Virus record (IMG/VR): IMGVR_UViG_3300048834_001245
Coordinates: 1-27,460 of that record
Direction: 5' to 3' (one strand)
Source of the DNA: a virus
Length of the DNA: 27,460 nucleotides
Under the pieces are notes generated by a model. It had not been told where the DNA came from. It ran no database searches and was given only the letters and a program-made list of their open reading frames with translations. The first letter of the stretch is position 1; every line of letters starts with the position of its first letter. Below, one piece after another: positions 1 to 27,460 of this stretch. The position numbers were made by a program, and so were the translations under genes.

Positions 1-103
1 TCAGAACCATGCGCTCAGAAACACCGAGAGATTTCGCGGCAGTATCGACGCTTACCTCAAGCTGGGAGTGGGGCTGGCTGCGGCGTGGCATCGCGGGCGA
101 CAT
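1..103 (-). CDS. Partial HTH protein (ParB/excisionase-like start), cut by window edge
   Basis: An open frame starts at an ATG (complement of 101-103) and runs off the left edge, so only 34 codons are seen. After a short basic leader, the residues VSVDTAAKSLGVSERMV resemble the helix-turn-helix found near the N-terminus of excisionase-like, ParB-like and phage or plasmid DNA-binding proteins (pattern V.vd.AA..LgVSer.V). An AAGGA lies only 2 nt before the ATG. A second ATG four codons later is an alternative start. The palindromic repeats at 175-339 lie just upstream and could be its binding sites, which is inference. The exact family cannot be decided from this fragment. Confidence 0.5.
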   Translation of the reverse strand, partial: MSPAMPRRSQPHSQLEVSVDTAAKSLGVSERMVL

Positions 104-174
104 GATCCTTGATTAGGAGTGCAGAGTACCCTAGCAGGGGGCATGCTCGCTCAAAAGGGGAAACATTCCGGACT

Positions 175-241
175 GGCATGATTTCCGAAATTTCGGAAAT
201 TTCCGAAGTTGCCGAAGTGACATTTCGGAAGTTTCGGAAAT
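175..241. repeat. CCGAA/TTCGG palindromic repeat cluster A
   Basis: Six CCGAA or TTCGG words, arranged head-to-head and head-to-tail with spacing of about 9-12 nt, fill this stretch. The first 33 nt (175-207, beginning GGCATG) are repeated exactly at 305-337. The core is overlapping palindromes such as TTTCCGAAATTTCGGAAA. The arrangement suggests several adjacent protein-binding half-sites (operator, partition site or iteron) or a mobile palindromic repeat. Confidence 0.7.
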
Positions 242-304
242 GACGGCTGATCATAAAACACGCATAGTCAATTAGATTAGCATGTTACGTTAACGTGCTG
301 TTTC

Positions 305-339
305 GGCATGATTTCCGAAATTTCGGAAATTTCCGAAAT
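305..339. repeat. CCGAA/TTCGG palindromic repeat cluster B
   Basis: Second copy of the 33-nt repeat that begins GGCATG. It contains two perfect 18-bp palindromes overlapping by 9 nt: TTTCCGAAATTTCGGAAA at 312-329 and TTTCGGAAATTTCCGAAA at 321-338. It sits just downstream of the fibre gene and its 3' hairpin. Confidence 0.7.
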
Positions 340-346
340 GGAGCCG

Positions 347-365
347 CTGGGGGCTACGCCCCCAG
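347..365. other. Perfect hairpin downstream of the fibre variable region
   Basis: CTGGGGGC and GCCCCCAG form a perfect 8-bp stem around the loop TAC, about 40 nt beyond the fibre stop codon. There is no following T-tract on the minus strand, so it is a poor intrinsic terminator. GC-rich hairpins or cruciforms just downstream of the variable region are known to assist mutagenic homing in DGRs such as that of Bordetella phage BPP-1, and position and shape fit that role. A plain transcript-end hairpin remains possible. Confidence 0.5.
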
Positions 366-404
366 ACCCCAACACCAAGGACCAAGGTCCAAGAAACCAA
401 GGAC

Positions 405-3400
405 TTAGTGGGCATTGGAGAAGGCGCAGCGGAAGCCCACGACGCTGTAGACGTCCGACGGCCCATTGACCAAATAGGCGGCGAACACGCCGGCGTACGA
501 GCCATCGTTCCAGTAGGCGCCGCGGAGCAGGGCATTGCCACTCGCGGTGCACCCATAATACTGACCGGCCCCGTTAGAGGAGGTCAGCGAGCCACTCGGG
601 CCGGCTACCAGCTTTTCCCAGTCGGTCACGTTGGCGTTGTTCCACTCGACCCATCCGGTGGTGTACCAGCTGGTCGTGTCGCACTGTGCATCCGTCCATT
701 CCCAGACGTTGCCGGCGAGGTCCCAGATGACATTGCCGTTGCTGAGGACGTGGGTGCGCATTTGCGATTTGTTGGCGGCGCCAGCCGAATAGGCTGTGCT
801 GTAGCCGTTGCCCGTGCCGTAGTAGCCATAGTCGGTGCTGTTGCCAGCATTGGTGCCGGGGCCACGCAGGGCGCAGGAGTTGTTGCTGGCATTCGATAGT
901 TCCAACGTGAGCGTGCAGCTCGAGAGCGAGGGGTCGGCCACTGCTGCCAAGGCGCTGGCCGGAGAGTTATCAGAGTGGCCAGTGGCAAGCTGAATACCGG
1001 CGGCCGAGTCGATATCGTTAATGGCGGTGGCCTCGATGTTGCGGGCGATGGTCATCCACTCGCCTTCGTTGACGAGGTGGCCGCCGACCCGCTTGCAGGC
1101 GCTTTGCGCCTCATACCAGGAGACGTTGACCCAGGGGGTGCCCGCAGAGGTCGACACTGCTTGGCCGGTGGTACCGTCCTTTTTGGCCTCGTACTTCATG
1201 ACGCAGAAGCTTGCGTTGGTGAAGCTCGCATTGCCCGGCACCAGGATATAGCCCGTGGGGCAGGTGAGGCTTGCTGTCGGCAGATTGGTGAGCTGCGAGC
1301 CGTCGACGGCCGGCAGCCGGGCACTGCCGTCGAGTTGGACCACTTTGCTCGCGGTGGTACCGACATCCAGTGTGGCAGCCGTGCCGAGGCCGAGGCTGGT
1401 GCGCGCCGTGGCGGCGACCAGGCCGGTGCTGCCGCCGTCCCATTTCATGCGGTCTGTGTAGGCGGTGTTCCAGTTTGCAGAGTTGTCGGCGACGACGCTG
1501 TAGGTCCCTGCCGCGGTGCGTGCCATTAGGCCGTCTGAGCCGAAGTCGCCGTTCATCACGGCGCCGGCGCTGTCGACCGCAGCCGTCGTGACGACGCCTG
1601 TGAGCTGGGAACCGTCGACAGCCGGCAGCTTGGCGGTGCCGTCTAGCTGCACGACATTGCTCGCGGCAGTGCCGACGTTCAGCGTGGCAGCTGTGCCGAG
1701 GCCGAGGCTCGTGCGGGCGGTCGTCGCATTGAGGCCGCTGGCGCCACCGTCCCACTGCAGCCGATCACTGTAGGCGGTGTTCCAGTCGGTGGCGCTGAGA
1801 GCAAGCCACGACGTCGTGCTGCCGTTGGTCGAGAGCACCTTGCCGGAGTTGCCGGTCTGGGCCGGCAGAAGACTCGTTAGCGCTCCGTCGGCGGTCGTCG
1901 CGCCGGTGCCGCCCTTGGCGACGGCCACGGCCGCGCTGAGGTTGGCGGGAGTGAGGTTTGAGACGGCCGAACCGTCGACGGCTGGCAGCTTGGCGGTAGC
2001 GTCAAGCTGCACCACTTGATCGGCGGCGGTGCCGACATCCAGCGTGGCGACCGTGCCGAGGCCGAGGCTGGCGCGGCCGGTGGCGGCCACGAGACCGGTG
2101 GCGCCGCCGTCCCATTTCAGGCGGTCGTCGTAGGCGGTGTTCCAGTTGGTGGTGCTGAGAGCAGTCCACGAGGCCGCCGTGCCGTCGGTCGAGAGCACCT
2201 TGCCGGAGTTGCCGGTCTGCGACGGCAGCAAGTTGGTGAGCGCCGCACTGGCGCTGGCGGCCCCGGTGCCGCCGCGGGAGATCGCAAGCTGCGCCTCGGA
2301 GCTCATCACGCCGCTGCCGTCGTTGACGAGCACGTGGGAGGCTGTGCCGGACGCCAGTTTGGCGCGGGCGATATTGGCACCCGCCTTGATCTCCGAGTCC
2401 TCGATGTTGCTGATCGTGTTGTTGTCGGCGTTGATCGTCTTGTTGATGAACGTGTCGGACGAGCTGGCCGTGGTCGCGGTCGCCCACGTCAGCACACCCG
2501 AGCCATTGGTCGACAGCAGCTGGCCGGCCGTGCCGTCTGCGGCAGGCAGAGTCCAGATTTGATTGCTTGCAACCGCGTCGGGCGCCTTGAGGCCGACGTA
2601 GTTATTCTCGAGCCCGTCACGCTCCTCAAAGCGCAGCTCGCCGGTTTGCCCGGCACCGCTGCCATAGCCGTCAAGCGTCACACCCGCTTGAAGGTCGCTG
2701 GTGAGCGAGCCGACCGGAAGGACGGTGGCCGCAGTAATGGCCGCCTGCTTGGCGTTGAGTTGGGCTTGGGGGTCCGAGGTCAGGCCCGCCAAATAATTGA
2801 AGTGCGTGTTGTCGACTGCTCCCGTGCCGATCTTGCTGGCGGCGATGTTGGCCGAAGCGCTGATGTCGGCATTTACGATGGTCCCGTCGGCGATGATGGT
2901 CGACGTGACGTCGCCGGTGCTCAGGCCGCCGCTGACAACGTCGTTCATGAGCTTGAAGCTACTGGTGGCGTTGTCCCACTTGATGACCTTTTGGTCGTTG
3001 CTGGCATCGAGAGTGTCGGTGAAGGCCTTGCCGCGGATCTTGGTGACCACCGTGGCATTCTGCGTGCCGGTGACGTCGCCGCTGAGGGTGCCGGAGAAGC
3101 TCTGCGCCTGTTTGATGGCGGTGATGTCGCCACCAGCGTCGACTTCGACAAAGGCATTGGTCGCCTTGATCACGCCCGGTGTAGTCGCGCCAGCAGTCGG
3201 GAGCGTGGCGGTCAGGCGGCCGCTTTCGTCGAACGTCACGGTGCTGCCGTCGACCGGCACCCGGGCTGCCAGCGGCACGACTGCAAAGCGCTGCCGAGGA
3301 TAGGTGCGCGCGTTGGTTTGATCGGTGATCTCGATATAGGCGGCCGTCTCAGCCGAGGGGAAGATCGCGCTGTAATCCTCGACCGGGAGATCGAGCGTCA

Positions 3401-3647
3401 GCTGAAAGACCCCCTCCTGGAGGGTCACTGCGGGGACGACGACTGGCTCGCCCAGCAGCGGACTGCCGCCGGTCTCACTTCGGAAGAAATGGACGGCAAG
3501 ATCGACGGGCCCCGCAAGCGGGCTGCCGGTCGGACCTGTCAGGCGGCCACCGTAGGAGAGCGGGAATGGGCCGGCGCTGGCGGCCAGCGGCGCCAGGGCG
3601 AGCCACAGCCCGGTCAGAGCCGAGGAGAGTTGGTGGTGCTTGGGCAT
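405..3647 (-). CDS. Secreted mosaic fibre/adhesin with DGR-type C-type-lectin tip
   Basis: A 1080-aa exported fibre-like protein, probably a trimeric surface adhesin. Residues 1-25 are a signal peptide ending LAASA|GP. Residues 26-145 form a beta-rich domain (GGRLTGPTGSPLAGPVDLAV onward) like the N-termini of mosaic adhesive trimer proteins of Bdellovibrio-type bacteria. Residues 180-460 contain phage-fibre-like text such as DGTIVNADISASANIAASKI. Three repeats centred on WNTAY.DR..WDGG start near residues 502, 622 and 726. Residues 796-1080 are a formylglycine-generating-enzyme/C-type-lectin fold (GHLVNEGEWM, NVIWDLAGNVWEWTDA, VGFRCAF). The last 40 residues match the layout of DGR variable regions. 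The ATG has GGAG 8 nt upstream. The signal peptide argues against a virion tail fibre. Structural class is well supported; ligand and host role are unknown. Confidence 0.85.
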   Translation of the reverse strand: MPKHHQLSSALTGLWLALAPLAASAGPFPLSYGGRLTGPTGSPLAGPVDLAVHFFRSETGGSPLLGEPVVVPAVTLQEGVFQLTLDLPVEDYSAIFPSAETAAYIEITDQTNARTYPRQRFAVVPLAARVPVDGSTVTFDESGRLTATLPTAGATTPGVIKATNAFVEVDAGGDITAIKQAQSFSGTLSGDVTGTQNATVVTKIRGKAFTDTLDASNDQKVIKWDNATSSFKLMNDVVSGGLSTGDVTSTIIADGTIVNADISASANIAASKIGTGAVDNTHFNYLAGLTSDPQAQLNAKQAAITAATVLPVGSLTSDLQAGVTLDGYGSGAGQTGELRFEERDGLENNYVGLKAPDAVASNQIWTLPAADGTAGQLLSTNGSGVLTWATATTASSSDTFINKTINADNNTISNIEDSEIKAGANIARAKLASGTASHVLVNDGSGVMSSEAQLAISRGGTGAASASAALTNLLPSQTGNSGKVLSTDGTAASWTALSTTNWNTAYDDRLKWDGGATGLVAATGRASLGLGTVATLDVGTAADQVVQLDATAKLPAVDGSAVSNLTPANLSAAVAVAKGGTGATTADGALTSLLPAQTGNSGKVLSTNGSTTSWLALSATDWNTAYSDRLQWDGGASGLNATTARTSLGLGTAATLNVGTAASNVVQLDGTAKLPAVDGSQLTGVVTTAAVDSAGAVMNGDFGSDGLMARTAAGTYSVVADNSANWNTAYTDRMKWDGGSTGLVAATARTSLGLGTAATLDVGTTASKVVQLDGSARLPAVDGSQLTNLPTASLTCPTGYILVPGNASFTNASFCVMKYEAKKDGTTGQAVSTSAGTPWVNVSWYEAQSACKRVGGHLVNEGEWMTIARNIEATAINDIDSAAGIQLATGHSDNSPASALAAVADPSLSSCTLTLELSNASNNSCALRGPGTNAGNSTDYGYYGTGNGYSTAYSAGAANKSQMRTHVLSNGNVIWDLAGNVWEWTDAQCDTTSWYTTGWVEWNNANVTDWEKLVAGPSGSLTSSNGAGQYYGCTASGNALLRGAYWNDGSYAGVFAAYLVNGPSDVYSVVGFRCAFSNAH
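429..530 (-). other. Putative DGR variable region (VR) in the fibre tip
   Basis: Codons 1040-1073 of the fibre read LLRGAYWNDG SYAGVFAAYL and continue to GFRC. DGR targets of the C-type-lectin/FGE type share RGG.W.NGS.AGVFA.NL..P......GFRCA, with variable positions at AAY codons in the template. Here the expected variable sites carry Ala1044/Tyr1045, Asp1048, Tyr1051, Tyr1058, Val1060, Asp1065, Val1066, Tyr1067, Ser1068 and Val1069. Most of these codons (TAC, GAT, TAT, GTC, GAC, AGC) can be reached from AAC or AAT by changing only A. The framework codons between them are conserved. The assignment rests on pattern only: no template repeat or reverse transcriptase is present here. Confidence 0.65.
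1281..2144 (-). repeat. Three in-frame repeats in the fibre shaft
   Basis: Codons 502-565, 622-685 and 726-789 encode copies of one ~64-residue unit: WNTAY.DR..WDGG..GL.A.. followed by R.SLGLGT.ATL.VGT and VVQLD..A.LPAVDGS. The first two copies are each preceded by a GGTGA....AL..LLP.QTGNSGKVLST segment (about 458-500 and 578-620), giving a 120-residue super-repeat. Such repeats usually form trimeric beta or coiled-coil shafts in fibres. Variation in copy number by recombination is plausible. Confidence 0.8.
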
Positions 3648-3810
3648 TCGGGCAACTCCGAGCAGGCACGGATTCCTCTAGGCAGCTTGTAGGAGGAGGT
3701 CGGACTTTTGCCTCAAAGTCTTTAGGGAAAGTGAGAATCTGGCTCAACAGCTCGACTTTTATGGAAGGAGTAGAGGGGCTTGGGATGACGTCGGATAGGG
3801 CGGCTAGAGT

Positions 3811-3840
3811 TTGTACTTTAGGACAAATTTTTCATATAGT
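3811..3840 (+). promoter_or_regulatory. Candidate sigma70-type promoter for the toxin-remnant/HTH gene
   Basis: TTGTAC (3811-3816) and TATAGT (3835-3840) are separated by 18 nt in a locally AT-rich stretch and point toward the HTH gene at 3963. Spacing and hexamers fit a housekeeping-type promoter; there is no other support. Confidence 0.4.
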
Positions 3841-3842
3841 AA

Positions 3843-3959
3843 AATCAAAGGAAATCCGATAAGAGAAGGACGGGGGTTATCCTGCTCGTCGGTGGTGACA
3901 AGGGATCGCAAGCATCCGACATCGAAACTGCTCGAAAACGGCTGCAGGACAAGGAGTAG
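3843..3959 (+). pseudogene. C-terminal remnant of a RelE/HigB-type toxin
   Basis: The frame ending at TAG 3957-3959 encodes GVILLVGGDKGSQASDIETA followed by a short basic tail. This is the characteristic C-terminus of RelE/HigB-like (phage Gp49-like) toxins, normally LLLCGGDKssQ..DI..A. No start codon or N-terminal two-thirds is found in frame: upstream is AT-rich sequence with stops in every frame. The fragment ends 3 nt before the HTH gene, exactly where a host-inhibition toxin would precede its HTH antitoxin. I read it as a decayed toxin whose antitoxin survives. Confidence 0.55.
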
Positions 3960-3962
3960 GCC

Positions 3963-4313
3963 ATGGCTCGCTTTACCAAAGAGCGACTTGAACAATTCCA
4001 GGACGTCGACGAGCTGCTGAATGCGCGCCTGACGCCAGAGGAGCGAGCGGAAAGCAGGCTCGAAGCTTTGCAAGAGCTTGCCGATTTGAAGGCGATGCAG
4101 GAAGAGCTGAGCAGGACTGTGGTTGAGTTCATGGCGACTGAAAAAATTGGGGTTCCCATGCTCACCTCGAGACTGGGAACGAGCACACGGCAGGCTTATA
4201 AGATCGTCAATGCGGAGGCGAACCTCACGCTAGCCAGTCTTGTGGAGCTGGGGCGGGTGTTAGGCAGGCGTCCTCGGATTGTTTGGGATCGGCGCGAGGA
4301 TGAACAAGAGTAA
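3963..4313 (+). CDS. HTH antitoxin-like transcriptional regulator (HigA/XRE-like)
   Basis: A 116-aa protein. The N-terminal half is charged and helical (LTPEERAESRLEALQELADL). The C-terminal half carries an XRE-like helix-turn-helix: GVPMLTSRLGTSTRQAYKIV, then NLTLASLVELGRVLGRRPRI, as in antitoxins of HigBA-type modules. AAGGAG lies 6 nt before the ATG. The toxin-type remnant directly upstream makes this the antitoxin half of a broken module, now an orphan regulator or anti-addiction gene. It probably binds its own upstream region. Confidence 0.7.
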   Translation: MARFTKERLEQFQDVDELLNARLTPEERAESRLEALQELADLKAMQEELSRTVVEFMATEKIGVPMLTSRLGTSTRQAYKIVNAEANLTLASLVELGRVLGRRPRIVWDRREDEQE

Positions 4314-4409
4314 GCAAGCGGCTCTCCCGAGGTCGCTAGCCCTCTTTATCTGCAAAAAGACGATGCACCCAGCCGATCGACCCTAGCCTAGCGCCATTCT
4401 GAGATGTCA

Positions 4410-4437
4410 GGCGGCCCCGAGGGGGTGGCCGGCCGCC
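4410..4437 (+). terminator. Possible terminator-like hairpin after the HTH gene
   Basis: GGCGGCC (4410-4416) and GGCCGCC (4431-4437) form a 7-bp GC stem with a 14-nt loop, about 100 nt after the HTH gene and before the next operon. No T-run follows, so an intrinsic terminator is uncertain. Confidence 0.35.
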
Positions 4438-4551
4438 CTCTTGAGCGACGGGGACGGGTGCTTTGTGCTTCAGCGCTTGCCGAAAGGTTCCGATAACGGT
4501 ACTCTTAACAGCTATGCGGGGCTTTCGCTCTGTGAAACTGAGGAGTTACCA

Positions 4552-4872
4552 ATGCTTAACTTCAAGACCGTGACCCTCACCGACCTGAAGAAAGACTCAA
4601 ACGCCCTCTTTGCCGGCGTGACGCGGGAGCAGCCCTTGCAGGTGCTCCACCGTGCCCACCCGGTCAAGGTGGTCATCCCGCTCGACCACTACCTGGATCT
4701 CGTTACCTGCTGGCACAGTGGCGAGAGAGGGAAAGAGGTCGTGCCGAAGGCGCTCGAGCAGGAGCTGCGCGAGGTGCGCGAGCAGTATCGTGCGTTGATG
4801 CTGAAGCTTGAAGGCAGCAGCGACCACGACGCCGGTGATTCTGCCGCGAAGCCTGAGAGTGAGACGGCTTGA
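4552..4872 (+). CDS. Phd/YefM-family antitoxin-like protein
   Basis: A 106-aa protein. Residues 5-50 match the Phd/YefM fold: VTLTDLKKDSNALFAGV, then QPLQVLHRAHPVKVVIPLDH, a beta-hairpin/helix DNA-binding domain that represses its own operon. The C-terminal half is acidic and helical (PKALEQELREVREQYRALML), where such antitoxins wrap their toxins. The ATG at 4552 is chosen because GAGGAG precedes it; the frame is open further upstream to a TTG at 4441 but without homology. The TGA overlaps the next gene's ATG (TGATG), implying coupled translation. No recognisable toxin follows, which is unusual. Confidence 0.65.
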   Translation: MLNFKTVTLTDLKKDSNALFAGVTREQPLQVLHRAHPVKVVIPLDHYLDLVTCWHSGERGKEVVPKALEQELREVREQYRALMLKLEGSSDHDAGDSAAKPESETA

Positions 4873-5192
4873 TGACGAACCAGAAGCGGGCGACATGGCG
4901 GTGGCGTTCGCCGGCCGTCTATCAGGCGGTATTGCGCCGGGCTCTGGACAAGGCGGATTATTCAGGCGCGATCGAGACGGCCGAGAAGTATCTCACGAAG
5001 ATCCGCTTTGTCATCGAGACGGCCGAGCGCAATCCGGAGCTTTGGACCTCGACCGGCAAGCCACCCTATCGATTTACGCCGCTGCCAGGTCCCTCTCCTG
5101 GCGAGGGGGACGTTGTTGTTTGGAGCTGGGACGGCGCCGAGCTGGTGGGCGAGGGTGTCTATTCGTGTTTGCCGCCGGCTTACCAGACGTAG
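4872..5192 (+). CDS. Unknown protein coupled to Phd-like antitoxin
   Basis: A 106-aa protein I do not recognise. It begins MTNQKRATWRWRSPAVYQAV, has a helical middle (AETAEKY-type and FVIETAERNPELW segments) and ends with a Pro/Gly-rich stretch and beta-like VVVWSWDGAELVGEGVYSCL. No signal peptide or membrane segment is seen. It overlaps the Phd-like gene by one base, so the two are probably made together. Position suggests a partner of that antitoxin, but the sequence resembles no toxin family known to me (Doc, YoeB, RelE). Confidence 0.6.
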   Translation: MTNQKRATWRWRSPAVYQAVLRRALDKADYSGAIETAEKYLTKIRFVIETAERNPELWTSTGKPPYRFTPLPGPSPGEGDVVVWSWDGAELVGEGVYSCLPPAYQT

Positions 5193-5196
5193 GCGG

Positions 5197-5212
5197 AGCG
5201 CCGTGAGGCGCT
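5197..5212. terminator. Hairpin between convergent operons
   Basis: AGCGCC-GTGA-GGCGCT is a perfect 6-bp stem with a GTGA tetraloop, 5 nt after the stop of the rightward gene. A second short inverted repeat (AGCGA/TCGCT) lies at 5246-5262. The 94-nt gap between convergent genes is where a bidirectional terminator is expected. The lack of a T-tract keeps confidence low. Confidence 0.35.
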
Positions 5213-5264
5213 AGGCGCCGAGCGGCGTCGGGGGCTGCGGAGGAAAGCGAGTAGTCTTCGCTGG

Positions 5265-5585
5265 CCGCTTGACCGCTTGCTTTGCTCTAGCGTCCCTCGG
5301 AGACGTCAAGCGGCGTCACGCCTAGACCGCGGCTCTCCAGCAGCTTGCCGAGCTGCTCGAGGGCGGCTGCCGCCTTTTCGAGCGATGCACAGGCGCTTGG
5401 CATTTCGCGCGGGGTCATGGCGCCGCGTGCCCAGGTGACGTGAGCGCGGATGCGCTCGAGCCAGCCGGCAAGGTCGGTCGGCGGTTCGCTGGCGCTAGGG
5501 GAATACCACCAGGTGGCGGCGGCTTGAGGGCTGGGTTTCTCATTGTTTGTCATGGCTAGCTCCTGTGTCGTAGGCCTCCTTGGGT
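5265..5585. repeat. Long direct repeat, copy 1 (carries P88a)
   Basis: About 320 nt that recur at roughly 6815-7135 in the same orientation. The repeat covers the whole 88-aa gene, its ribosome-binding region and a short 3' flank (CGCTTG...CTAG.GTCCCTCGG). Identity is highest within the gene and fades outside it. There are no terminal inverted repeats or transposase, so this looks like gene duplication or recombination rather than an insertion sequence. Ends are approximate. Confidence 0.75.
5287..5553 (-). CDS. Unknown 88-aa protein, copy P88a
   Basis: Small soluble protein of unknown family. Visible features: TWWYSPSASEPP near the N-terminus, then DLAGWLERIRAHVTWARG, a conserved MTPREMPSACASLEKAAAAL helix and a C-terminal GLGVTPLDVSEGR. 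It is probably helical, with no membrane segment. The start at MTNNEK is preferred over the upstream in-frame ATG (5613) because AGGAG precedes it and the second copy starts at the same place. It differs from P88b at 9 of 88 residues. It is the last gene of the leftward run, 60 nt after the DUF2283 gene. Confidence 0.7.
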   Translation of the reverse strand: MTNNEKPSPQAAATWWYSPSASEPPTDLAGWLERIRAHVTWARGAMTPREMPSACASLEKAAAALEQLGKLLESRGLGVTPLDVSEGR

Positions 5586-5613
5586 CTTGTTCGATCACGG
5601 ATTGCGACAACAC

Positions 5614-5904
5614 CTAACGATTTGACGACCGCTGCGCTGCTGTCGATGACCTTCGGTTTTCCGCGTTTTCTTGCCGTCTGCTGCCTGGCTGCTGCCTACG
5701 CGCTCGGGCGGCTGGACCGCTGGAGCCGCTTGCTTTGAGCAGCGGCGCGAGTTGGCTCAATGCTAGCACTTCGATCCCAAGCACCTGGCCGTTCTTGTCA
5801 AGGTCGAACAAGATGCCCGGGCGCAGCTCGACCGTGGATGCGACCTTGCCGGTGCGGAGCTTGATGTATGCGACGTCTAGCTTGGCGTCTTTTGTCACCT
5901 TCAC
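5614..5904 (-). CDS. DUF2283 family small protein
   Basis: A 96-aa protein. Residues 1-50 fit DUF2283: VKVTKDAKLDVAYIKLRTGK, then STVELRPGILFDLDKNGQVL, then GIEVLALSQL, with the family's DxxxD.ayi.l and giEvl...l signatures. The family often sits next to DUF4258 genes as a suspected antitoxin partner, and here it starts 4 nt after one. I choose the GTG at 5904, with GGAAGGA upstream. The last ~40 residues are a basic, low-complexity Arg/Gln/Ser tail absent from typical members, perhaps from loss of an earlier stop codon. Confidence 0.7.
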   Translation of the reverse strand: MKVTKDAKLDVAYIKLRTGKVASTVELRPGILFDLDKNGQVLGIEVLALSQLAPLLKASGSSGPAARARRQQPGSRRQENAENRRSSTAAQRSSNR

Positions 5905-5908
5905 GGGC

Positions 5909-6136
5909 TCAGTCCTTCCAGTAAGCGGTGATGAGGAGATATCCACCTCGCACCTTCAAGTAAACCACTAGCAGGGTTCGGCGTGCGAGGGGAAGCTCCG
6001 CGATGAATCGGCCGCTGATATCGATGCGTGTTGTCTCTCCGAGCGCAATGCAGCGACGCACCTCAGTGCGCGAGATGCGACGCTCTTTGAGGCGGAGTGC
6101 AGCGTGCGGGGAGACTTCAAGAGGTGCGGGAGCCAT
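5909..6136 (-). CDS. DUF4258 family protein (putative RelE/MqsR-like toxin)
   Basis: A 75-aa protein with the DUF4258 pattern: SPHAALRLKERRISRTEVRR, then a Gly-containing turn, RRTLLVVYLKVRGGYLLITA and a terminal YWKD. Members are small, fold like RelE/MqsR-type endoribonucleases and commonly pair with YgiT-type zinc-finger/HTH proteins or DUF2283 proteins. Both kinds flank it here. The ATG has GGAG 10 nt upstream. RNase activity is inference. Confidence 0.75.
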   Translation of the reverse strand: MAPAPLEVSPHAALRLKERRISRTEVRRCIALGETTRIDISGRFIAELPLARRTLLVVYLKVRGGYLLITAYWKD

Positions 6137-6244
6137 TGCCTAAAAACTCCACCAGCAAGAAATGGGTCAGCGCGCTTTGCGTCGGCAGAACGTGTACGGC
6201 GAGCGCACTTGTGTGCCGACCTTTGGCTAAGCCCCCCTTCGTCT

Positions 6245-6805
6245 TTAAAGAGCGAGGCGGTTGAAGAGGTCATTGCTTTCAATGCGCTGTGGCAGATGGA
6301 CAGTCTGATCAGGGTCGAGATGATCAGCGATACGTGCCAGCTCATTCAGATCGAGCCCAAGACGGCGGGCATAGATCACCCGGAGACGAAACTGCCGGTC
6401 GATGCTGAGATGGCGGGTCGTGTTGTTGACCGATTCAAACTTATTGTACTCTTTGACGTCCATGTTGAGGGCACTCGCGGTTTCTTGCTGGGTCAAGCCG
6501 GCAACGATGCGAAGAAACCGCAACTGCTGCTTGTCGAGAGCATGCGCATCGTTGATGAGCTGTGTGGCAATGCCGAGCCTGAGATTCTGCTCGAGCCCTG
6601 GGTAGAAATAGAGCGTCTCACAGGTATCGCACTCGACAAAGGGCGCCTTGACCAGGAGGACCATGCCGAGCCCTTCGATGGTGTGGGGGATGTTTTCTCG
6701 GATTGTGACCTTCCAGGTGCCTTTGCAGTCACACGTGGCGTGGGCGTCGTCGAACTCATCTTGGAGACGGCGTTCGTCGAGGCTCCTAAGGTTACCAAAA
6801 GTCAT
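6245..6805 (-). CDS. YgiT-type zinc-finger/HTH protein (MqsA-like antitoxin)
   Basis: A 186-aa protein with the MqsA architecture. The N-terminal zinc-binding domain has CDC (Cys25/Cys27) and CDTC (Cys59/Cys62) around PHTIEGLGMVLLVKAPFVE. The first pair is CxC rather than the usual CxxC. Residues ~90-125 form an XRE-type HTH (LRFLRIVAGLTQQETASALN, then EYNKFES). A further helical region (RQFRLRVIYARRLGLDLNEL) follows. The known role of MqsA-like proteins is to neutralise a partner toxin and repress the operon. The likely partner is the DUF4258 protein 108 nt downstream. It begins 32 nt after P88b. Confidence 0.75.
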   Translation of the reverse strand: MTFGNLRSLDERRLQDEFDDAHATCDCKGTWKVTIRENIPHTIEGLGMVLLVKAPFVECDTCETLYFYPGLEQNLRLGIATQLINDAHALDKQQLRFLRIVAGLTQQETASALNMDVKEYNKFESVNNTTRHLSIDRQFRLRVIYARRLGLDLNELARIADHLDPDQTVHLPQRIESNDLFNRLAL

Positions 6806-6814
6806 ATGTCACCC

Positions 6815-7135
6815 GTCGCCGGCCGCTTGATTCGTTCTAGTGTCCCTCGGAGACGTCAAGCGGCGTCACGCCAAGACCACGGGTCTCCAGCACCTTGCCG
6901 AGCTGCTCGAGGGCGGCTGCCGCCTTCTCGAGCGATGCACAGGCGCTTGGCATTTCGCGCGGCGTCATGGTCCCGCGCGCCCAGGTGACGTGAGCGCGGA
7001 TGCGCTCGAGCCAGCCGGCAAGGTCCTTCGGCGGCTCGCTGGCGCTTGGGGAGTACCACCAGGTGGTGGCGGCTTGTGGGGCAGTCTTCTCATTGCTCGT
7101 CATGGGCAGCTCCTGCGGCGTCGCGCTCCTTGGCG
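6815..7135. repeat. Long direct repeat, copy 2 (carries P88b)
   Basis: Second copy of the repeat described at 5265-5585, same orientation, about 1.55 kb away. The YgiT, DUF4258 and DUF2283 genes lie between the copies, so recombination between them could delete or amplify that three-gene block. Confidence 0.75.
6837..7103 (-). CDS. Unknown 88-aa protein, copy P88b
   Basis: Paralogue of P88a, identical at 79 of 88 residues by eye; substitutions are scattered and mostly conservative, so both copies look functional. It overlaps the end of the CopG/BrnA-like antitoxin gene by 14 nt and has AGGAG 7-8 nt before its ATG, so it is translationally coupled as the third gene of that module. Function is unknown. 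Occurrence behind two different TA-type modules suggests an accessory antitoxin, chaperone or selfish passenger. Confidence 0.72.
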   Translation of the reverse strand: MTSNEKTAPQAATTWWYSPSASEPPKDLAGWLERIRAHVTWARGTMTPREMPSACASLEKAAAALEQLGKVLETRGLGVTPLDVSEGH

Positions 7136-7482
7136 CGCCTTAGGCGGATGTACTCGGTGACGGCCATCTTGATAAAGCTCTGGTAGCCGATGTTGAGGCG
7201 CTTGGCCTCTTCCTTGGCGTTGGCAAGCAGCGACTCTGGCCACTTCATATAGACGGGCGCCAGGGGCTCGTCGCTTTTGGGCCGGCCGCCGCCGTGACGC
7301 TTGGCGAGGTTTTCTTTGACCTGCCGGTCGATCTCGTGGATCTCAGAGAGCTCGTCGTCTTGGGCGGCCACCCAGTCGCTTTGACGGCCGGCTCGAAAGT
7401 CTTCTTCGAGTTTTTGGGCCTCTTTAAGGTCGGCCTCTCTCTCAGCCTTGGTGCTTGGATCGATGGGGTAGTTGGAGGGCAT
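7090..7482 (-). CDS. CopG/BrnA-like antitoxin
   Basis: A 130-aa protein. The N-terminal two-thirds are acidic and helical (AEREADLKEAQKLEEDFRAG). The C-terminal part carries a ribbon-helix-helix-like segment (GGGRPKSDEPLAPVYMKWPE, then AKRLNIGYQSFIKMAVTEYI), as in BrnA and related CopG-type antitoxins, which bind DNA as dimers and neutralise a small RNase toxin. The ATG at 7482 is chosen because AAGGAAG lies 6 nt before it; an in-frame ATG at 7509 lacks such a site. It starts 17 nt after the toxin gene. Confidence 0.75.
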   Translation of the reverse strand: MPSNYPIDPSTKAEREADLKEAQKLEEDFRAGRQSDWVAAQDDELSEIHEIDRQVKENLAKRHGGGRPKSDEPLAPVYMKWPESLLANAKEEAKRLNIGYQSFIKMAVTEYIRLRRAKERDAAGAAHDEQ

Positions 7483-7498
7483 TGTTAGCTTCCTTTTT

Positions 7499-7780
7499 TC
7501 AAAGCTCATCGAGCCACAGTGCTGTTTTGAGTTTGAGTTTTCGCCTGTTGCGATCGGGGGTCAGAAAGAGGACCAGCACCCGGTCGCTCATGGTTGGCGC
7601 GATGATGCGCCAGGTTTCGGGCGGGTCGTGCCGCGGGTTGCGAGGCCGCCTCCAGTCTGCGGGCGAAGAGTTGCAGTAGGCTTCCTCCACGTCGGTTTCT
7701 GTGACGCCATGCTCGGTTGCGATTTTCTCCAAGACCCATGGGGAGATCTCGAGGGTGTAGCCGTCAAACTCCCTCACCAC
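7499..7780 (-). CDS. BrnT-like toxin
   Basis: A 93-aa protein beginning VVREFDGYTLEISPWVLEKI and continuing with TETDVEEAY, a Trp/Arg-rich loop and RVLVLFLTPDRNRRKLKLKT. Size, the late beta-strand RVLVLFLTPD and gene order (toxin before a CopG/BrnA-like antitoxin) fit the BrnT/RelE-fold toxins, which cleave mRNA. The GTG start has GAGAGGAGG 8 nt upstream, a strong site. The AT-rich stretch at 7800-7860 probably holds the promoter for this gene and perhaps for the whole seven-gene run. Confidence 0.65.
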   Translation of the reverse strand: MVREFDGYTLEISPWVLEKIATEHGVTETDVEEAYCNSSPADWRRPRNPRHDPPETWRIIAPTMSDRVLVLFLTPDRNRRKLKLKTALWLDEL

Positions 7781-8256
7781 CAGGTGAGCCTCCTCTCTCT
7801 AGTCGGCACTATTTTATATATACTTTAGCTCAACCGACCCTTCCTAGCAAAAATATATGTGAAACCATCCTAATTCCTGCGCAGGGACGCAAGTCCGCAA
7901 AATTTTTCATTCTCTAGTGAGCTGCTGCGGCGCCGCCGGCACCGCAAAAGGGGGGTGGGAAAGGACCCGTTTGCACGCTTTCTACGCACTGTGTCGGAAG
8001 CTGTGGCCGCTTTGGCAAAAGCCGTAAACATGCCGTCTTTTGTCTGCTATCTTAGCGGCATAGGTTCATTTCCCGACAGAATGCATGGCCGTGCGCGAGG
8101 GCTCCTTGTGGCTCAAGGGTTTTGCGTCTCATCTTCGGCGGGCGTCCGGCCCCTCGGAGTAACCCTGTCTTACCTCCTACTTCTCACGACGAAGAAAGGG
8201 GTAGGGATCGGGCGCTATTTATTCGCAAAAGGGTGCTGGGGAAGGAGCAAGGTCGG
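7781..8256. other. Divergent intergenic region; likely left end of the prophage
   Basis: 476 nt between the leftward TA run and the rightward recombinase. 7800-7920 is clearly more AT-rich than its surroundings, with TATATATAAAATAG on the minus strand as a possible -10 region for the toxin operon. A GC palindrome GCGGCGCCGC lies near 7927. The frame of the recombinase is open back to 8122 but without homology. An integrase-proximal att site is expected here; I found no matching core in the right-hand 300 nt by eye. Confidence 0.45.
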
Positions 8257-9849
8257 GTGCTGACGATCTACTACGTGTCGCTTGGTGGCTCACTGGAGGA
8301 GATGAAGCGGATCTACCGGGCGCAGGAGGAGAGGCGGCATCCCGGCAAGATGCTGCCGCACCTGGACGAGCGCATGAACAAGGTGCGGGTGGTACTCGAA
8401 AAGAATACCTCCTTTCGCTCGCTGATGCTGACGGCCGAAGACCGCAGTGTGGTGGTGATCGATGGCCTGAACCACCCCAGGCTCGACATCGACCTCTTCG
8501 TCGACCTCTACGAGAAGCGCAGGAAAGACGGCCTCTACGTGCGGCTGCTTGATGAAAACCTGCTGCTTGATCCCAAAGAGCAGATGACCAGCTCGTTTCT
8601 CACCGGGGTCATGAACGCTCATCAGAAAAAGCTCCGCCCCCGACGGCTTCCCAGCATCGCCGAGGCCCATGGCAAAAGCTTTATCTCCGACATGCAGCGC
8701 GAGAGGCGAGAGGGCGCAACGCTGGAGGCCTTGGCAAAAAAGTACGGCGTGTCGGTGAGCGCTGCCCATCGCTACACGCGCGGCCACCAGCGACCGCTTG
8801 CGCGCAAGGTGGAGGGCGACAAGTCCGAGCCGGCCCCAAGCCTTGCCAGGCTTGGAAACCTCGCAGAGACGCCCGAAGAGAGGCTCGAGCAGCTTCTCGA
8901 GATCTTTCTTTCCGGCCAAAGAAAGCCCGCCACCGCCAAGCTCTACCGCAAGCACCTGGGCACCTACCGAAGCTTTGCGGCCAGCGTGCTCGAAAGCCCC
9001 GTCGACCGTCTCGACAAGTTCACGCTGGAAAGCGTCGTGGCCTTCAAGCAGTACCGAAGTGAGCTTGGCAAGCAGCCGGCCACCATCGCCAGCGAGCTGT
9101 CGGCCGTCAAAGCCTTCCTGGGGTTTTGCGCTGGCGAAGAGGAGATCCCCAAAAACCCGCTTCAAAGGCTCAAGGTTCCAAAGGTCGAGAGAAAGGTCCA
9201 GACCGAGGCGCTCACCCGAGACGAAACCGCCAAGGTCATCGCCACGGCCCAGGAGATCTTGAAGTCGACGCCGCCTTTGAACATCCCCCAGCGCTGGAAG
9301 GCCCACCGCGATCTTTTGGCCGTCTACCTCCTGGCCGGCGTCGGCATGCGCCACAGCGGTCTTTTGTCGCTCAGAAAGTGCGACCTCCTCGAAACACGCC
9401 GCGGCAAAAGCCTCGCCATTGAAAGCAAGGCCAACGCCGATCGCTACACCGTCGGCGTCTCAAAGCCAGTCGCCGACATGGTCGAGGCCTATATCGAGCG
9501 CTACTTTCACGACGCTCCTCCCGAGGCCTACCTTTTCTCGGCCTCTCTCGAGGTCAAAGACAAGCCGCTTGGCATCTCGACCAGCTGTCGCCGCATCAGT
9601 AGCCTTTTTGACAAGGCCGGCATCACCCCGATCACTGCCGGGGGAAGCCAAAGAAGAGCCCACAGTCTCAGAGTCTCTTGGGCCAAGTTTGCCTACGAAG
9701 ATGGCGCCGATATCCGTAGTATTCAGCTCAAAATGAATCACAGCGCCGTCGACCAGACCTACGCCTATCTTAAAATCGACGACGCCGAGGTCGACACCAG
9801 GTGGCTGCCGACTGTCCGTCTGCAAACCTCCACCGGAGTGAGGCTTTGA
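8257..9849 (+). CDS. Tyrosine recombinase fused to a degenerate serine-resolvase-like domain
   Basis: A 530-aa protein with two recombinase-type parts. Residues 1-130 (VLTIYYVSLGGSLEEMKRIY, VVVIDGLNHPRLDIDLFVDL, YVRLLDENLLLDP, FLTGVMNAHQ) follow the layout of serine resolvases, but the YaRvS arginine and the LdRl.R arginines are not conserved, so this part is probably not catalytic. Residues ~146-178 form a resolvase-type HTH (GATLEALAKKYGVSVSAAHR). Residues 205-530 are a tyrosine recombinase with a SAM-like core-binding domain and candidate catalytic Arg365, Lys391, His469-x-x-Arg472, His495 and Tyr504. GTG 8257 is chosen for GAAGGAG 9 nt upstream. Its stop overlaps the terminase gene (TTGA). 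Likely role: integration and excision of the element. Confidence 0.85.
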   Translation: MLTIYYVSLGGSLEEMKRIYRAQEERRHPGKMLPHLDERMNKVRVVLEKNTSFRSLMLTAEDRSVVVIDGLNHPRLDIDLFVDLYEKRRKDGLYVRLLDENLLLDPKEQMTSSFLTGVMNAHQKKLRPRRLPSIAEAHGKSFISDMQRERREGATLEALAKKYGVSVSAAHRYTRGHQRPLARKVEGDKSEPAPSLARLGNLAETPEERLEQLLEIFLSGQRKPATAKLYRKHLGTYRSFAASVLESPVDRLDKFTLESVVAFKQYRSELGKQPATIASELSAVKAFLGFCAGEEEIPKNPLQRLKVPKVERKVQTEALTRDETAKVIATAQEILKSTPPLNIPQRWKAHRDLLAVYLLAGVGMRHSGLLSLRKCDLLETRRGKSLAIESKANADRYTVGVSKPVADMVEAYIERYFHDAPPEAYLFSASLEVKDKPLGISTSCRRISSLFDKAGITPITAGGSQRRAHSLRVSWAKFAYEDGADIRSIQLKMNHSAVDQTYAYLKIDDAEVDTRWLPTVRLQTSTGVRL

Positions 9850-10142
9850 GGGAAGAACACAAAGGAGGAGCCCTCGAGGCCGAGCAGGTGCGGCTCACCA
9901 AGGTGAGAGCCGACAAGCTCGAGCTGGAGCTGCTCGAGAAAGAGCGTCAGCTCGTGCCAGTCGACGAGGTGAAAAAGCTCTGGAAGGCGGCCGTCATGGC
10001 GGCCAAGGCCAGGCTTCTTGCCATCCCAGCCTCTAAAGCGCCCACCCTGGCTCTGCTTGGCGAGCCAGCCGAGGTCGAAGAAGTGCTCACAAGGGCCATC
10101 GACGACGCCTTGGCCGAGCTTTCCAGGGGAGAGGTCATTTGA
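9846..10142 (+). CDS. Small terminase subunit (Nu1-like), short form
   Basis: A 98-aa protein. AEQVRLTKVRADKLELELLE, then KERQLVPVDEVKKLWKAAVM and ARLLAIPASKAPTLA match the second half of Nu1-type small terminases, which bind the large subunit. The N-terminal winged-helix half that recognises the cos or pac site in ~170-180-aa relatives is absent. The frame is open only about 15 codons further upstream, inside the recombinase gene. I place the start at TTG 9846, overlapping the recombinase stop, with GGAG/GAGG just upstream. AAAGGAGG at 9862-9870 could instead serve a GTG near 9888. Confidence 0.7.
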   Translation: MREEHKGGALEAEQVRLTKVRADKLELELLEKERQLVPVDEVKKLWKAAVMAAKARLLAIPASKAPTLALLGEPAEVEEVLTRAIDDALAELSRGEVI

Positions 10143-11983
10143 GGGCAGAAAGAGAGCTGCTCGAAGTCTTTCGCGAAGCCTTTGCCCCGCCGCCTCGGCT
10201 TTCCATCTCGGACTGGGCCGAGCGCTACCGTGTCCTCTCGGGCGAGGCCTCGGCCTCGCCTGGCCGCTGGCGCACCGACAGCGTGCCATATCTTCGAGGC
10301 ATCATGGAGGCCGTCAAGGCGCCAGACGTCAAAGAGGTCATCGTCAAGGCCGCAGCCCAGGTCGGAAAGACCGAGTTTCTCCTCAACTGCATCGGCTACT
10401 ACACCCACCAGGAGCCAAGCCCCCAGCTGGTGCTTCTGCCAACGCTTGAGCTAGCCGAGATCTGGAGCAAAGACCGCCTGGCCACCATGATTCGCGACTC
10501 CAAGGTCCTGGCCAAGATTGTCGAAGACCCCAAGGCCAAGGACAGCTCCAACACCATGCTGCACAAGCGCTTTGCCGGCGGTCACATCTCGCTGGCCGGC
10601 GCCAACTCGCCGGCCTCGCTCTCGTCACGGCCGATTCGCATCGTCTACGCCGACGAGGTCGACCGGATGCCCGACTCGGCTGGCTCGGAAGGAAGCCCGC
10701 TCGATCTGGCGCGAAAGCGCTCGTCGACCTTCTACAACCGAAAATTTATCGCGACCAGCTCGCCCTCTAGAGAGCGCCGGACCTCCAAGATAAACCGCCT
10801 CTACGAGGCCTCAAGGCGGCACGTCTTTGAGCTGCCCTGTCCCCACTGCCGCGCCTTTATCGTCCTTGAATGGGAGGGGGTCGTCTGGGAGGAGGAAAGG
10901 ACTGAGACAGCCTTCTACCGCTGCCAGGAGTGTGCCGGCGCCATCTACGACGGCCACAAATTGGCAGCCCTCAAGGCCGGTCGCTGGCGCTGTCTTGACC
11001 CCGACAAGCGGGGGGCAAGTGTCGGCTTTCACGTCTCGGCCCTCTACTCGCCGTGGGTCTCTTTTGGCGAGACGGCCGACGAGTACATGGCAGCCCAGCG
11101 CGACACCGAGAAAATGAAGGTCTTCTACAACACCTTTCTTGGCGAGCCCTACGAGGACGAGGTCGACACGGTGGCCTCGAGTCTCCTTTCCACGAGAGCC
11201 GAAGACTACGAGGCCGAGGTGCCACGTGGCGTCAGGGTGCTTTGTCTTGGAGTCGACGTCCAAGACGACCGCCTTGAGGCCCAAGTCATCGGCTACGGCG
11301 AGGACTGGGAGGCCTGGGTCATCGGCTACTACGTTCTTTGGGGAGACGTCGCCACAGAGGCGCCGTGGGCTCTTCTCGACGAGCTTCGCACTAGGGAGTT
11401 TCGCCACGAGTGGGGCTTTCCCGTCCGGGTCGTGGCAACGGCCGTCGACTCGGGCGACAACACCAAGATCGTCTACGACTACGTGCGCGGCAAGACCGGC
11501 CAGAGGGTCTTTGCCGTAAAGGGCGTGCGCGGCACGGGAAGGCCCGTGGTCGGTGCGCCGAGTAGACGCAAAAGCCCCTCGGATGGGCGCGAGGTGGTGC
11601 TTTATCCCTTGGGCGTCGACGAGGGGAAGGCGCTTCTCTACCAGAGGCTCAAGCTCACAGAGCCCGGCCCCGGCTACATACATTTCCCCATGGCGCTTTC
11701 TGCTGATTACTATAAACAGCTTACCTCAGAACGCGTGAAGATCACTTACCAAAATGGCCACCCCGTCAAGGTCTGGGAGCTGCCGCGGCACCGCCGCAAC
11801 GAAGCTCTCGACACGGCCGTCTACGCGCACGCGGCCGCCGTGATCCTCAATCCGCTCTTTCGCGAGATCACGCAAAGGATGGAGCGCCTTAGAGACAGCC
11901 ACGGCAAGGCAAGCGAGAAAAAAAGACTCCTCATCAAGAAGCGAAGAGACAGCGTCGGCTTTGTGAACGCCTGGAGAAACTAG
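10139..11983 (+). CDS. Large terminase subunit (GpA family)
   Basis: A 614-aa DNA-packaging motor of the lambda GpA type. Residues 71-79 (AAAQVGKTE) are the Walker A loop, and IVYADEVDR (168-176) is the Walker B region with Asp172/Glu173. Residues 234-265 hold a zinc ribbon (CPHC...CQEC). The C-terminal nuclease begins near GVDVQDDR (~369-376), with VVATAVDSGDNTKIVYDYV further on. Length is typical of the family, so ATPase and nuclease both look intact. Starts at a TTG overlapping the previous stop (TTGA), with GGGGAGAGG upstream. Confidence 0.92.
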   Translation: MRAERELLEVFREAFAPPPRLSISDWAERYRVLSGEASASPGRWRTDSVPYLRGIMEAVKAPDVKEVIVKAAAQVGKTEFLLNCIGYYTHQEPSPQLVLLPTLELAEIWSKDRLATMIRDSKVLAKIVEDPKAKDSSNTMLHKRFAGGHISLAGANSPASLSSRPIRIVYADEVDRMPDSAGSEGSPLDLARKRSSTFYNRKFIATSSPSRERRTSKINRLYEASRRHVFELPCPHCRAFIVLEWEGVVWEEERTETAFYRCQECAGAIYDGHKLAALKAGRWRCLDPDKRGASVGFHVSALYSPWVSFGETADEYMAAQRDTEKMKVFYNTFLGEPYEDEVDTVASSLLSTRAEDYEAEVPRGVRVLCLGVDVQDDRLEAQVIGYGEDWEAWVIGYYVLWGDVATEAPWALLDELRTREFRHEWGFPVRVVATAVDSGDNTKIVYDYVRGKTGQRVFAVKGVRGTGRPVVGAPSRRKSPSDGREVVLYPLGVDEGKALLYQRLKLTEPGPGYIHFPMALSADYYKQLTSERVKITYQNGHPVKVWELPRHRRNEALDTAVYAHAAAVILNPLFREITQRMERLRDSHGKASEKKRLLIKKRRDSVGFVNAWRN

Positions 11984-12240
11984 TGGAAGAGGTCAAAGCT
12001 GCGCTCGAGCGCGCACGCGAAATCTCGCGCGCCATCGACTCGACACTCGCTGGCCGCGTCGGCAAGGACGTCTCGTCTTTTGAGATCGAGACCAACCTCG
12101 GACGGCGCCGCCTCGACAAGATCCCGCTTCCAGAGCTTCTCAAGGCCAAAGACTACTACCAAAAAGAGATCGCCCGGCTTGAGGAGAGGCTTAAGCGAGG
12201 CGACTTGCCGCCTGCCCGGCAAGTCCTCGTGAGGTTTTAA
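11983..12240 (+). CDS. gpW-like head-tail joining protein
   Basis: An 85-aa protein between large terminase and portal, the position of gpW in lambda-like heads. LERAREISRAIDSTLAGRVG, EIETNLGRRRLDKIPLPELL and YYQKEIARLEERLKRG follow the family's helix / beta-hairpin / helix plan. gpW-type proteins fill the portal channel after packaging and provide the tail attachment site. GTG start overlaps the terminase TAG (TAGTG). Confidence 0.75.
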   Translation: MEEVKAALERAREISRAIDSTLAGRVGKDVSSFEIETNLGRRRLDKIPLPELLKAKDYYQKEIARLEERLKRGDLPPARQVLVRF

Positions 12241-12246
12241 AAAGGC

Positions 12247-13722
12247 GTGGGCTGGTTTGCGAGAGTCTTTCTCAGGCGCAAAGACAAGGTCCAAAGAAGG
12301 GGGTTTGACGCTGCCAAGACCTCCAGGCTTCAGGCGGCAGGCTGGGGGGCTGACACCCCCTACGACAAGGACATCCTCTCTTCCCTTTCAAGGCTAAGGG
12401 GGCGCTCGCGCGATCTGGCGCAAAATAACGACTACGTGAAGCGCTTTCTCGCACTCCTCAACACGCATGTCGTCGGCCCCAAGGGCATTCAGCTCAGGTG
12501 CTCCTTCAAGGTGCAGGGCGAAATCGACCACTCGGTTAACGACGAGATCGAAGAGCAGTTTCGCCGCTGGGGGAAAAAGGGTGCCTGTGACGTTACCGGG
12601 AAACTCTCCTGGCGAGACGTCCAGAGGCTTGTCCTGCAAGGGGTGGCGCGCGACGGCGAGGCCTTCGTGCGCTTTGTCTACAGCGAGCGCTACCCCTACG
12701 GTCTGGCGCTGCAGGTGATCGACCCGGCCCTTCTTGACGAGCAGCTCTCAGAGAGCAAGGGCGAGCGGCTCATCTCGATGGGAGTCGAGCTTGACGAGTG
12801 GGGAAAGCCGACTGCCTACTACTTCAAGTCAGGCCGCGACACGGGCGAGGTGGTGGCAGGTCGTCACTACCGGCGCATTCCGGCCGGCGAGATCCTGCAC
12901 GTCTTCATGCAGGACATGCCGCAGCAAACCCGCGGCGTGCCGTGGATTCACACGGCCATGAGTCGCCTGAAGATGCTCGGTGGCTACGAGGAGGCCGAGC
13001 TGGTCGCAGCCCGGGTCGCCAGCACCAAGATGGGCTTTTTCAAGCAGACCGGCGGCGCGGGCTATGTCGGCGAAGACCTCAAGCCCGACGAGGATGGAAA
13101 CGTCATCCAGAAGGCCGAGCCGGGGAGCTTTGAGCTCTTGCCCGAGGGGGTCGAGTTTCAACCCTGGGAGCCCGAGCACCCGGCGGGGAATTTTGGACCC
13201 TTCGTGAAGGCCTGTTTGCGCGGCATCTCGGCAGGTCTTGGCATCTCCTATAACTCGCTGGCCAACGACGTCGAGAGCGTCAGCTACTCGTCCTTGCGGT
13301 CGAGTCTTCTCGAAGAGCGCGACCACTACGTCTGCCTGCAAAACTGGCTGGTCGAAAACCTGTGCGAGGCCGTCTACGCGAAGTGGTTGACGGGAGCGGT
13401 GCTTTCCAAGAAATTCACGAAAATCACAACGGTCAACATGGACCGCTTTGACTCGCCGCAGTGGGTGGCTCGGCGCTGGGCCTGGGTCGACCCGCTCAAA
13501 GACACCAAGGCCAACATCCTGGCGCTGGAGGCCGGGCTCAAATCTCGAACCGAGATCATCTCCGAGCAGGGGAGGTCGCTGGATGACGTCTTTTCAGAAA
13601 TCGTAGCCGAGAAGGCTAAGGCCGAAAAATTCGGCCTCTCCTTTGGAGAGGGCAGTGAAGAAGATAGCGGAGACGAAGCTGAGGCAGAGGCTCTTGAGCC
13701 AGACGAGCAGTATCTCTCATAG
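12247..13722 (+). CDS. Portal protein (lambda GpB family)
   Basis: A 491-aa protein whose features match lambda-type portals: DILSSLSRLRGRSRDLAQNN near the N-terminus, NTHVVGPKGIQLRC, GEAFVRFVYSERYPYGLALQ, IPAGEILHVFMQDMPQQTRG, and the late GISYNSLANDVESVSYSSLR. It forms the dodecameric ring through which DNA enters the head and to which joiner and tail attach. The C-terminus is acidic. It begins at a GTG 6 nt after the gpW gene. Its 3' end overlaps the protease-capsid gene by about 70 nt. Confidence 0.92.
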   Translation: MGWFARVFLRRKDKVQRRGFDAAKTSRLQAAGWGADTPYDKDILSSLSRLRGRSRDLAQNNDYVKRFLALLNTHVVGPKGIQLRCSFKVQGEIDHSVNDEIEEQFRRWGKKGACDVTGKLSWRDVQRLVLQGVARDGEAFVRFVYSERYPYGLALQVIDPALLDEQLSESKGERLISMGVELDEWGKPTAYYFKSGRDTGEVVAGRHYRRIPAGEILHVFMQDMPQQTRGVPWIHTAMSRLKMLGGYEEAELVAARVASTKMGFFKQTGGAGYVGEDLKPDEDGNVIQKAEPGSFELLPEGVEFQPWEPEHPAGNFGPFVKACLRGISAGLGISYNSLANDVESVSYSSLRSSLLEERDHYVCLQNWLVENLCEAVYAKWLTGAVLSKKFTKITTVNMDRFDSPQWVARRWAWVDPLKDTKANILALEAGLKSRTEIISEQGRSLDDVFSEIVAEKAKAEKFGLSFGEGSEEDSGDEAEAEALEPDEQYLS

Positions 13723-27342: not shown

Positions 27343-27346
27343 GTCC
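27332..27346. other. Perfect hairpin at the edge of the tandem repeat
   Basis: GGACAG-TCT-CTGTCC is a perfect 6-bp stem with a 3-nt loop. Its 3' arm overlaps the first unit of the 15-bp tandem repeat. It could act as a terminator stem (no T-run) or mark a slippage-prone boundary. Confidence 0.45.
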
Positions 27347-27460
27347 ACACAGACTGGGTCCACACAGACTGGGTCCACACAGACTGGGTCCACACAGACT
27401 GGGTCCACACAGACTGGGTCCACACAGACTGGGTCCACACAGACTGGGTCCACACAGACT
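27343..27460. repeat. 15-bp perfect tandem repeat, about 8 copies, running off the window
   Basis: The unit GTCCACACAGACTGG is repeated without a mismatch 7.9 times to the window edge. Unit length is a multiple of three, so every frame is periodic; one minus-strand frame encodes repeated Trp-Thr-Gln-Ser-Val. There are no spacers, so it is not CRISPR. Total length is unknown because the array is cut. Confidence 0.9.

Follow-up and report, generated by a model that had tools for sequence, protein, structure and literature searches.

The window, by which we mean the whole 27,460-bp stretch of DNA analysed here and which is an entire IMG/VR record, carries near its left end a gene for a long fibre whose C-terminal tip contains a DGR-type variable region (VR), and the record stops on the left inside the gene adjoining the fibre gene (Table 1). 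Scanning viral contigs with the fibre tip domain gave six relatives, five of them close and one distant. One of the close ones, L002 (record G001), is near-identical to the window, with 14 mismatches in 11,274 matching bp, and extends beyond its left end; the first 103 bp of the window (minus strand) are collinear with L002 11172-11274, and the window and G001 can be aligned over 15.2 kb. The window itself contains no reverse transcriptase (RT) gene and no second copy of the VR repeat. An earlier note, made from the window sequence alone, had predicted that RT and template would be encoded outside it, to the left of position 1, and both are indeed present in G001 beyond that end.

Read along the coding strand, the cassette consists of the fibre gene with its VR, a hairpin, two clusters of operator-like repeats, and the genes for an HTH protein, bAvd and the RT, followed by the template repeat. 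The accessory protein is a bAvd relative that scores under both curated cut-offs. The RT matches phrog_1423 with 237 bits, and its best solved relative, at 1e-31, is 8ub7, which we take to be the BPP-1 RT. The template lies after the RT in both G001 and G002 and is itself followed by a 15-bp hairpin with a GAAA loop. By sequence, the DGR is established as complete. A single fused HTH-Avd protein after the fibre was considered and rejected, as the HTH protein and bAvd are encoded by two overlapping genes. The structural model of the HTH protein has reasonable confidence for the N-terminal HTH only, and fold searches gave weak excisionase-like matches. The protein was not found at the other RT loci searched, and its helical C-terminal domain of about 120 residues (L002 11172-11861) was likewise unseen in the other DGR loci searched.

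Table 1 Features of the DGR cassette. Positions are those of the window unless L002 is given.
Feature	Position (strand)	Evidence or remarks
DGR target fibre gene, 1,080 aa	405..3647 (-)	ORF; start MPKHHQLSSALTGLWLALAPLAASAGPFPLSYGG, end ...ALLRGAYWNDGSYAGVFAAYLVNGPSDVYSVVGFRCAFSNAH
Signal-peptide-like N-terminus MPKHHQLSSALTGLWLALAPLAASA	3573..3647 (-)	Sequence inspection; kept in all relatives
N-terminal ~110-aa domain, common to exported cellular proteins	3237..3572 (-)	hhalign 98% probability, P 1.5e-13
Repetitive shaft	1272..3236 (-)	360-bp tandem repeat at 1609-2273
FGE/C-type-lectin-like tip domain carrying the VR	408..1271 (-)	Sequence matches
VR, 114 bp	421-534 (-)	11/11 template mismatches at template A; 12/14 differences to G001 (window 1-14,085)
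Invariant, IMH-like end of VR	about 421-440 (-)	3', GC-rich
Hairpin CTGGGGGC GTA GCCCCCAG, 8-bp stem	347..365 (-)	Sequence; 55 bp downstream of VR
Iterated 9-bp palindromic repeat cluster, VR-proximal, ATTTCCGAAATTTCGGAAAT	311..339	Sequence
Second such palindromic cluster, ahead of HTH gene	181..244	Sequence
HTH_17 (excisionase-like) gene, first 34 codons, cut by left end	1..103 (-)	Collinearity with L002
HTH_17 protein	L002 11172-11861	HTH_17 36 bits
bAvd-like accessory protein	L002 11851-12228	bAvd 35.9 bits (cut-off 40), DivGenRetAVD 47 bits (cut-off 80)
RT	L002 12182-13159	DGR-type motif IGNLTSQ and YMDD; RVT_1 61 bits
Template repeat, 114 bp	L002 13213-13326	54 bp past RT end in G001

The N-terminus of the fibre has KHH, then a hydrophobic stretch and ASA ahead of G26, a layout that bears out the secretion-type start read by the earlier note as far as sequence resemblance goes. 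In the shaft, residues 521-791 show piecewise similarity to a phage tail fibre protein, that of HMO-2011. The tip scores 22 bits against FGE-sulfatase, slightly below the cut-off of 23.3, and residues 1025-1078 match phrog_2889 with 52 bits. The best solved relative of the tip profile is TaqVP (5vf4), at a weak similarity of 33 bits (E 5e-7), and the profile of the whole fibre has no solved relatives at E <= 0.1. Structure prediction of the tip gave an unusable model (pLDDT 28).

The template, read from the near-identical record, translates as ALLRGANWNNGTNAGVFAANLNNGPSNVNSNVGFRCA. It has 22 adenines in 114 positions, all in codon positions 1 and 2, and the only codons that bear them are ten AAY codons, one ACG and one AGC, so that a stop codon cannot arise. 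The template allows about 9e12 proteins, with up to 12 residues altered. When the window VR is compared with the G001 template, every one of the 11 mismatches falls on a template adenine (hypergeometric p = 1.1e-9). The VRs of G001, G002 and G004 show 14, 13 and 14 mismatches, respectively, the last scored against the G002 template since G004 ends before its own, and over the four alleles all 52 mismatches are at template adenines. The variable region proposed for the fibre tip has its framework where the earlier note had read it and is pinned to the 114 bp given in Table 1, and the predicted limitation of substitutions to template adenines holds without exception. Between the templates of G001 and G002 there are three differences, all at non-adenine bases, and at every one of them the VR of each lineage mirrors its own template, which is a mark of copying.

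Up to position 14,085 the window and G001 differ at 14 bases, 12 of which lie in the VR (binomial p ~7e-24). This cut was set after the data had been seen, since the block at 14086-15059, with 55 alignment differences in the major head protein gene, looks like a mosaic tract acquired by recombination; over the whole aligned stretch, 12 of 69 differences fall within the 114-bp VR, where about 0.5 would be expected. Chance is excluded as the source of the VR differences. In principle, point mutation or recombination of the ordinary kind could make the tip vary, and the template would then be a pseudogene fragment; the recombination-like block shows that such exchange has a counterpart elsewhere in the window. 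We regard this explanation as extremely improbable, because no difference in the repeat lies outside template adenines in any of the four alleles, because nearly all differences up to the cut are in the VR, and because an RT and bAvd adjoin the supposed fragment. That near-identical phages differ chiefly in the VR indicates, from comparison of their genomes, that the DGR has been active in nature. VR alleles are identical within the pair G002/G003 and within G004/G005, across samples, so that turnover is not fast everywhere and change is not constant.

The genome around the cassette is that of a phage. In the window, PHROGs matches identify genes for both terminase subunits, small and large, and for the portal, head, baseplate, sheath and tape measure, together with a late tail gene and, at the usual site behind the baseplate genes, a separate tail-fibre gene (20006-21133). 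A tyrosine recombinase gene, called Xer-like, lies at 8122-9849. In G002 (34,824 bp), a single molecule carries the RT, the fibre, the recombinase, the head and contractile-tail genes and ParA. The gene is therefore not host-chromosomal, and the description of the adhesin as host-encoded in the earlier note has to be given up. L013 begins at the template, runs via patatin, endolysin, a primase-like gene and ParA to the tail genes, and joins the remaining two ends into a circular map of about 38 kb assembled from overlapping records. No flanking host DNA was recognised at any record end, and a search via the fibre, the terminase and the genome contigs found no host. To judge from its genes, the carrier of the cassette is a temperate phage with a contractile tail. 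ParA (above cut-off in three records), the Xer-like recombinase, several toxin–antitoxin-like genes and iteron-like 15-bp repeats together suggest that it is probably a phage-plasmid; neither ParB nor a replication initiator was recognised.

The hairpin downstream of the VR has a stem that is identical across three lineages and a loop of 3 or 4 nt, and is a candidate target-recognition hairpin. In addition to the two palindromic clusters in Table 1, a third is found within the HTH gene, at about G001 5813-5859, where the repeats encode the linker of the HTH protein. In all records checked, such clusters occur at the DGR locus only, and they are conserved though the intervening DNA diverges. 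The cluster ahead of the HTH gene is a candidate operator of the DGR operon. The simplest reading of this arrangement would be control of the operon by the HTH protein, with the palindromic repeats as its binding sites; it is also possible that the repeats act in homing.

The hydrophobicity of the fibre N-terminus ranks second among the 37 ORFs of G002, which does not single out the fibre and makes hydrophobicity alone weak, only suggestive evidence. The domain that follows points more strongly to export than the hydrophobic start does. It matches an Armatimonadota chromosomal protein at E 0.004, and a profile built from phage and cellular copies had 35 hits, spread over 6 of 61 Armatimonadota genomes. 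All 25 of the N-terminal cellular copies are directly preceded by a hydrophobic, signal-peptide-like segment. Aligning the phage profile with the cellular profile in hhalign gave a probability of 98%, a comparison that is partly non-independent since the cellular set was gathered with the mixed profile, the match at E 0.004 being independent. The same TR/VR rule, run on other RT-bearing viral contigs, gave 27 targets (some duplicates, two doubtful), of which a single one, L032 from a contig of 4.4 kb, clearly has a signal-peptide-like start on the same strand. In the survey of Benler et al. 2018, phage DGR proteins are without signal peptides, and Roux et al. 2021 report that cellular DGR targets have signal-peptide-type N-termini and that viral targets carry tail annotations. 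By the features of its target, the present locus crosses this divide between phage and cellular target types. What appears unusual is the target itself, a phage DGR fibre built like a host-exported surface protein and unlike a part of the virion.

Export to the cell surface is the better-supported reading of the fibre when set against a place in the virion, and we hold it with moderate confidence. Were the fibre instead the receptor-binding fibre of the virion, with the DGR shifting phage tropism as in BPP-1, its N-terminus would merely resemble a signal peptide, which agrees poorly with the invariable signal-peptide-like segment ahead of its cellular relatives and with the other phage DGR targets surveyed. 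The gene would also be out of place, being distant from the late genes and read from the other strand, and the site usual for such a gene, following the baseplate genes, already holds a tail-fibre gene. This alternative, the main rival and in our view clearly the less likely of the two, draws on the residence of the gene in a phage genome, on the likeness of its shaft repeats to those of the HMO-2011 tail fibre, on the known use of DGRs on phage tail fibres (BPP-1, hankyphage) and on the fact that, in the main clades, most targets of viral DGRs bear a tail-protein annotation (PMC8144416).

The best explanation of the locus, which we consider reasonably probable, would be that a phage-borne DGR diversifies an adhesin shown by the lysogen. 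The RT and bAvd would copy the template RNA, erring at adenines, and the mutated cDNA would then replace the VR, changing up to 12 residues of the tip; this step of mutagenic retrohoming is taken from the known DGR mechanism. The Sec pathway of the lysogen would export the fibre to act as an adhesin on the cell surface, and the phage would in this way give its host a changeable means of binding. The virion would rely on its ordinary tail fibre (20006-21133), and the HTH protein would regulate the operon via the palindromic repeats. An exported fibre might also serve the phage itself, for instance by acting on the outer surface as a decoy for competing phages or a block to them, or by holding released virions. 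It would have the same anatomy as the adhesin, and the position of the gene among cargo amid toxin–antitoxin modules would suit it, but nothing ties the tip to other phages and we think it improbable. Returning to the lysogen's adhesin, we put forward more tentatively, at somewhat less than an even chance, that the whole amounts to lysogenic conversion by targeted hypermutation, with a plasmid-like temperate phage, a DGR regulated by its own HTH protein and operator repeats, and an exported target resembling a mosaic adhesive trimer (MAT).

The DGR of Bordetella phage BPP-1 (Mtd tail fibre, Avd, bRT) is likewise phage-borne, with a C-terminal VR in a C-type-lectin-type domain (to judge from sequence matches, probably also the case here), an Avd-type accessory protein, a hairpin after the VR and an RT related to 8ub7. 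It differs from the present cassette, in which the template follows the RT, an HTH protein and palindromic repeats are added, and the target combines a signal-peptide-like start with an N-terminal domain of cell-surface type. The hankyphage of Bacteroides is also temperate, with about 1e12 variants, and two of its genomes were reported to differ in the VR only and to be otherwise identical; in contrast to the present phage it is Mu-like, and the protein that it diversifies is regarded as a tail fibre (PMC6199706, PMC12135933). The variable protein of the Thermus aquaticus DGR (5vf4, TaqVP) is prophage-encoded and has the C-type-lectin fold, although its similarity to the tip is weak (33 bits) and it is not described as a long exported fibre (PMC6328139).

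Display of the target on the bacterial surface, the mode of working proposed here, is found for the DGR proteins of Legionella and Treponema cited in PMC8144416. The Legionella protein is a lipoprotein encoded outside such a phage; the present fibre is long, phage-encoded and starts without a lipobox-like sequence. For the MATs of Bdellovibrio, PMC10769870 gives a signal peptide directly followed by a beta domain of about 130 residues, a trimeric shaft and an exchangeable C-terminal tip; one of them, Bd2740, has a C-type-lectin tip whose trimer is matched only by Mtd. In the passages considered, these proteins are chromosomal and are given no DGR. The earlier note had called the fibre MAT-like, and in its layout of signal-peptide-like start, domain of about 110 residues, repetitive shaft and C-type-lectin/FGE-type tip the comparison is plausible, as an analogy of architecture.

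A chromosomal DGR of Parcubacteria/Patescibacteria (L071 2-3196, SURF_57) has a tip 51% identical to the phage tip over about 281 residues, and a bAvd-like gene and an RT downstream. It lies on a cellular contig, its shaft is of another kind and its RT is only distantly related. So close a tip beside distant RTs suggests that the variable domain has been exchanged between phage and cells.

DGRs have two textbook uses, the alteration of tail fibres by phages and of surface proteins by bacteria. The cassette appears to join the two, as a phage-borne DGR directed at a fibre of cell-surface type. If the fibre is indeed exported, phages can supply their hosts with a ready-made adhesin that diversifies itself, and some of the DGRs counted as 'viral' need rereading as host-surface systems. 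Two phages that are nearly identical over 14 kb and differ chiefly at the VR also provide a clear natural example of DGR activity.

Some further features of these genomes may be recorded. Between the fibre and the recombinase, at 4.4-7.8 kb of the window, lies variable cargo, large parts of which cannot be aligned to G002; it includes toxin–antitoxin-like genes (Phd/YefM-like, CopG/BrnA-like, DUF2283, HTH). The segments 5273-5583 and 6823-7133 are 311-bp copies, 89% identical, that code for paralogous proteins of about 90 residues with no assigned function. The right end of the window (27343-27460), on the ParA side of the genome, holds about eight perfect copies of the iteron-like 15-bp repeat GTCCACACAGACTGG, and this array is probably the point where assembly stopped. 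Near the template repeat, a patatin-like phospholipase gene (L002 14694-15626) adjoins a GH108 endolysin gene.
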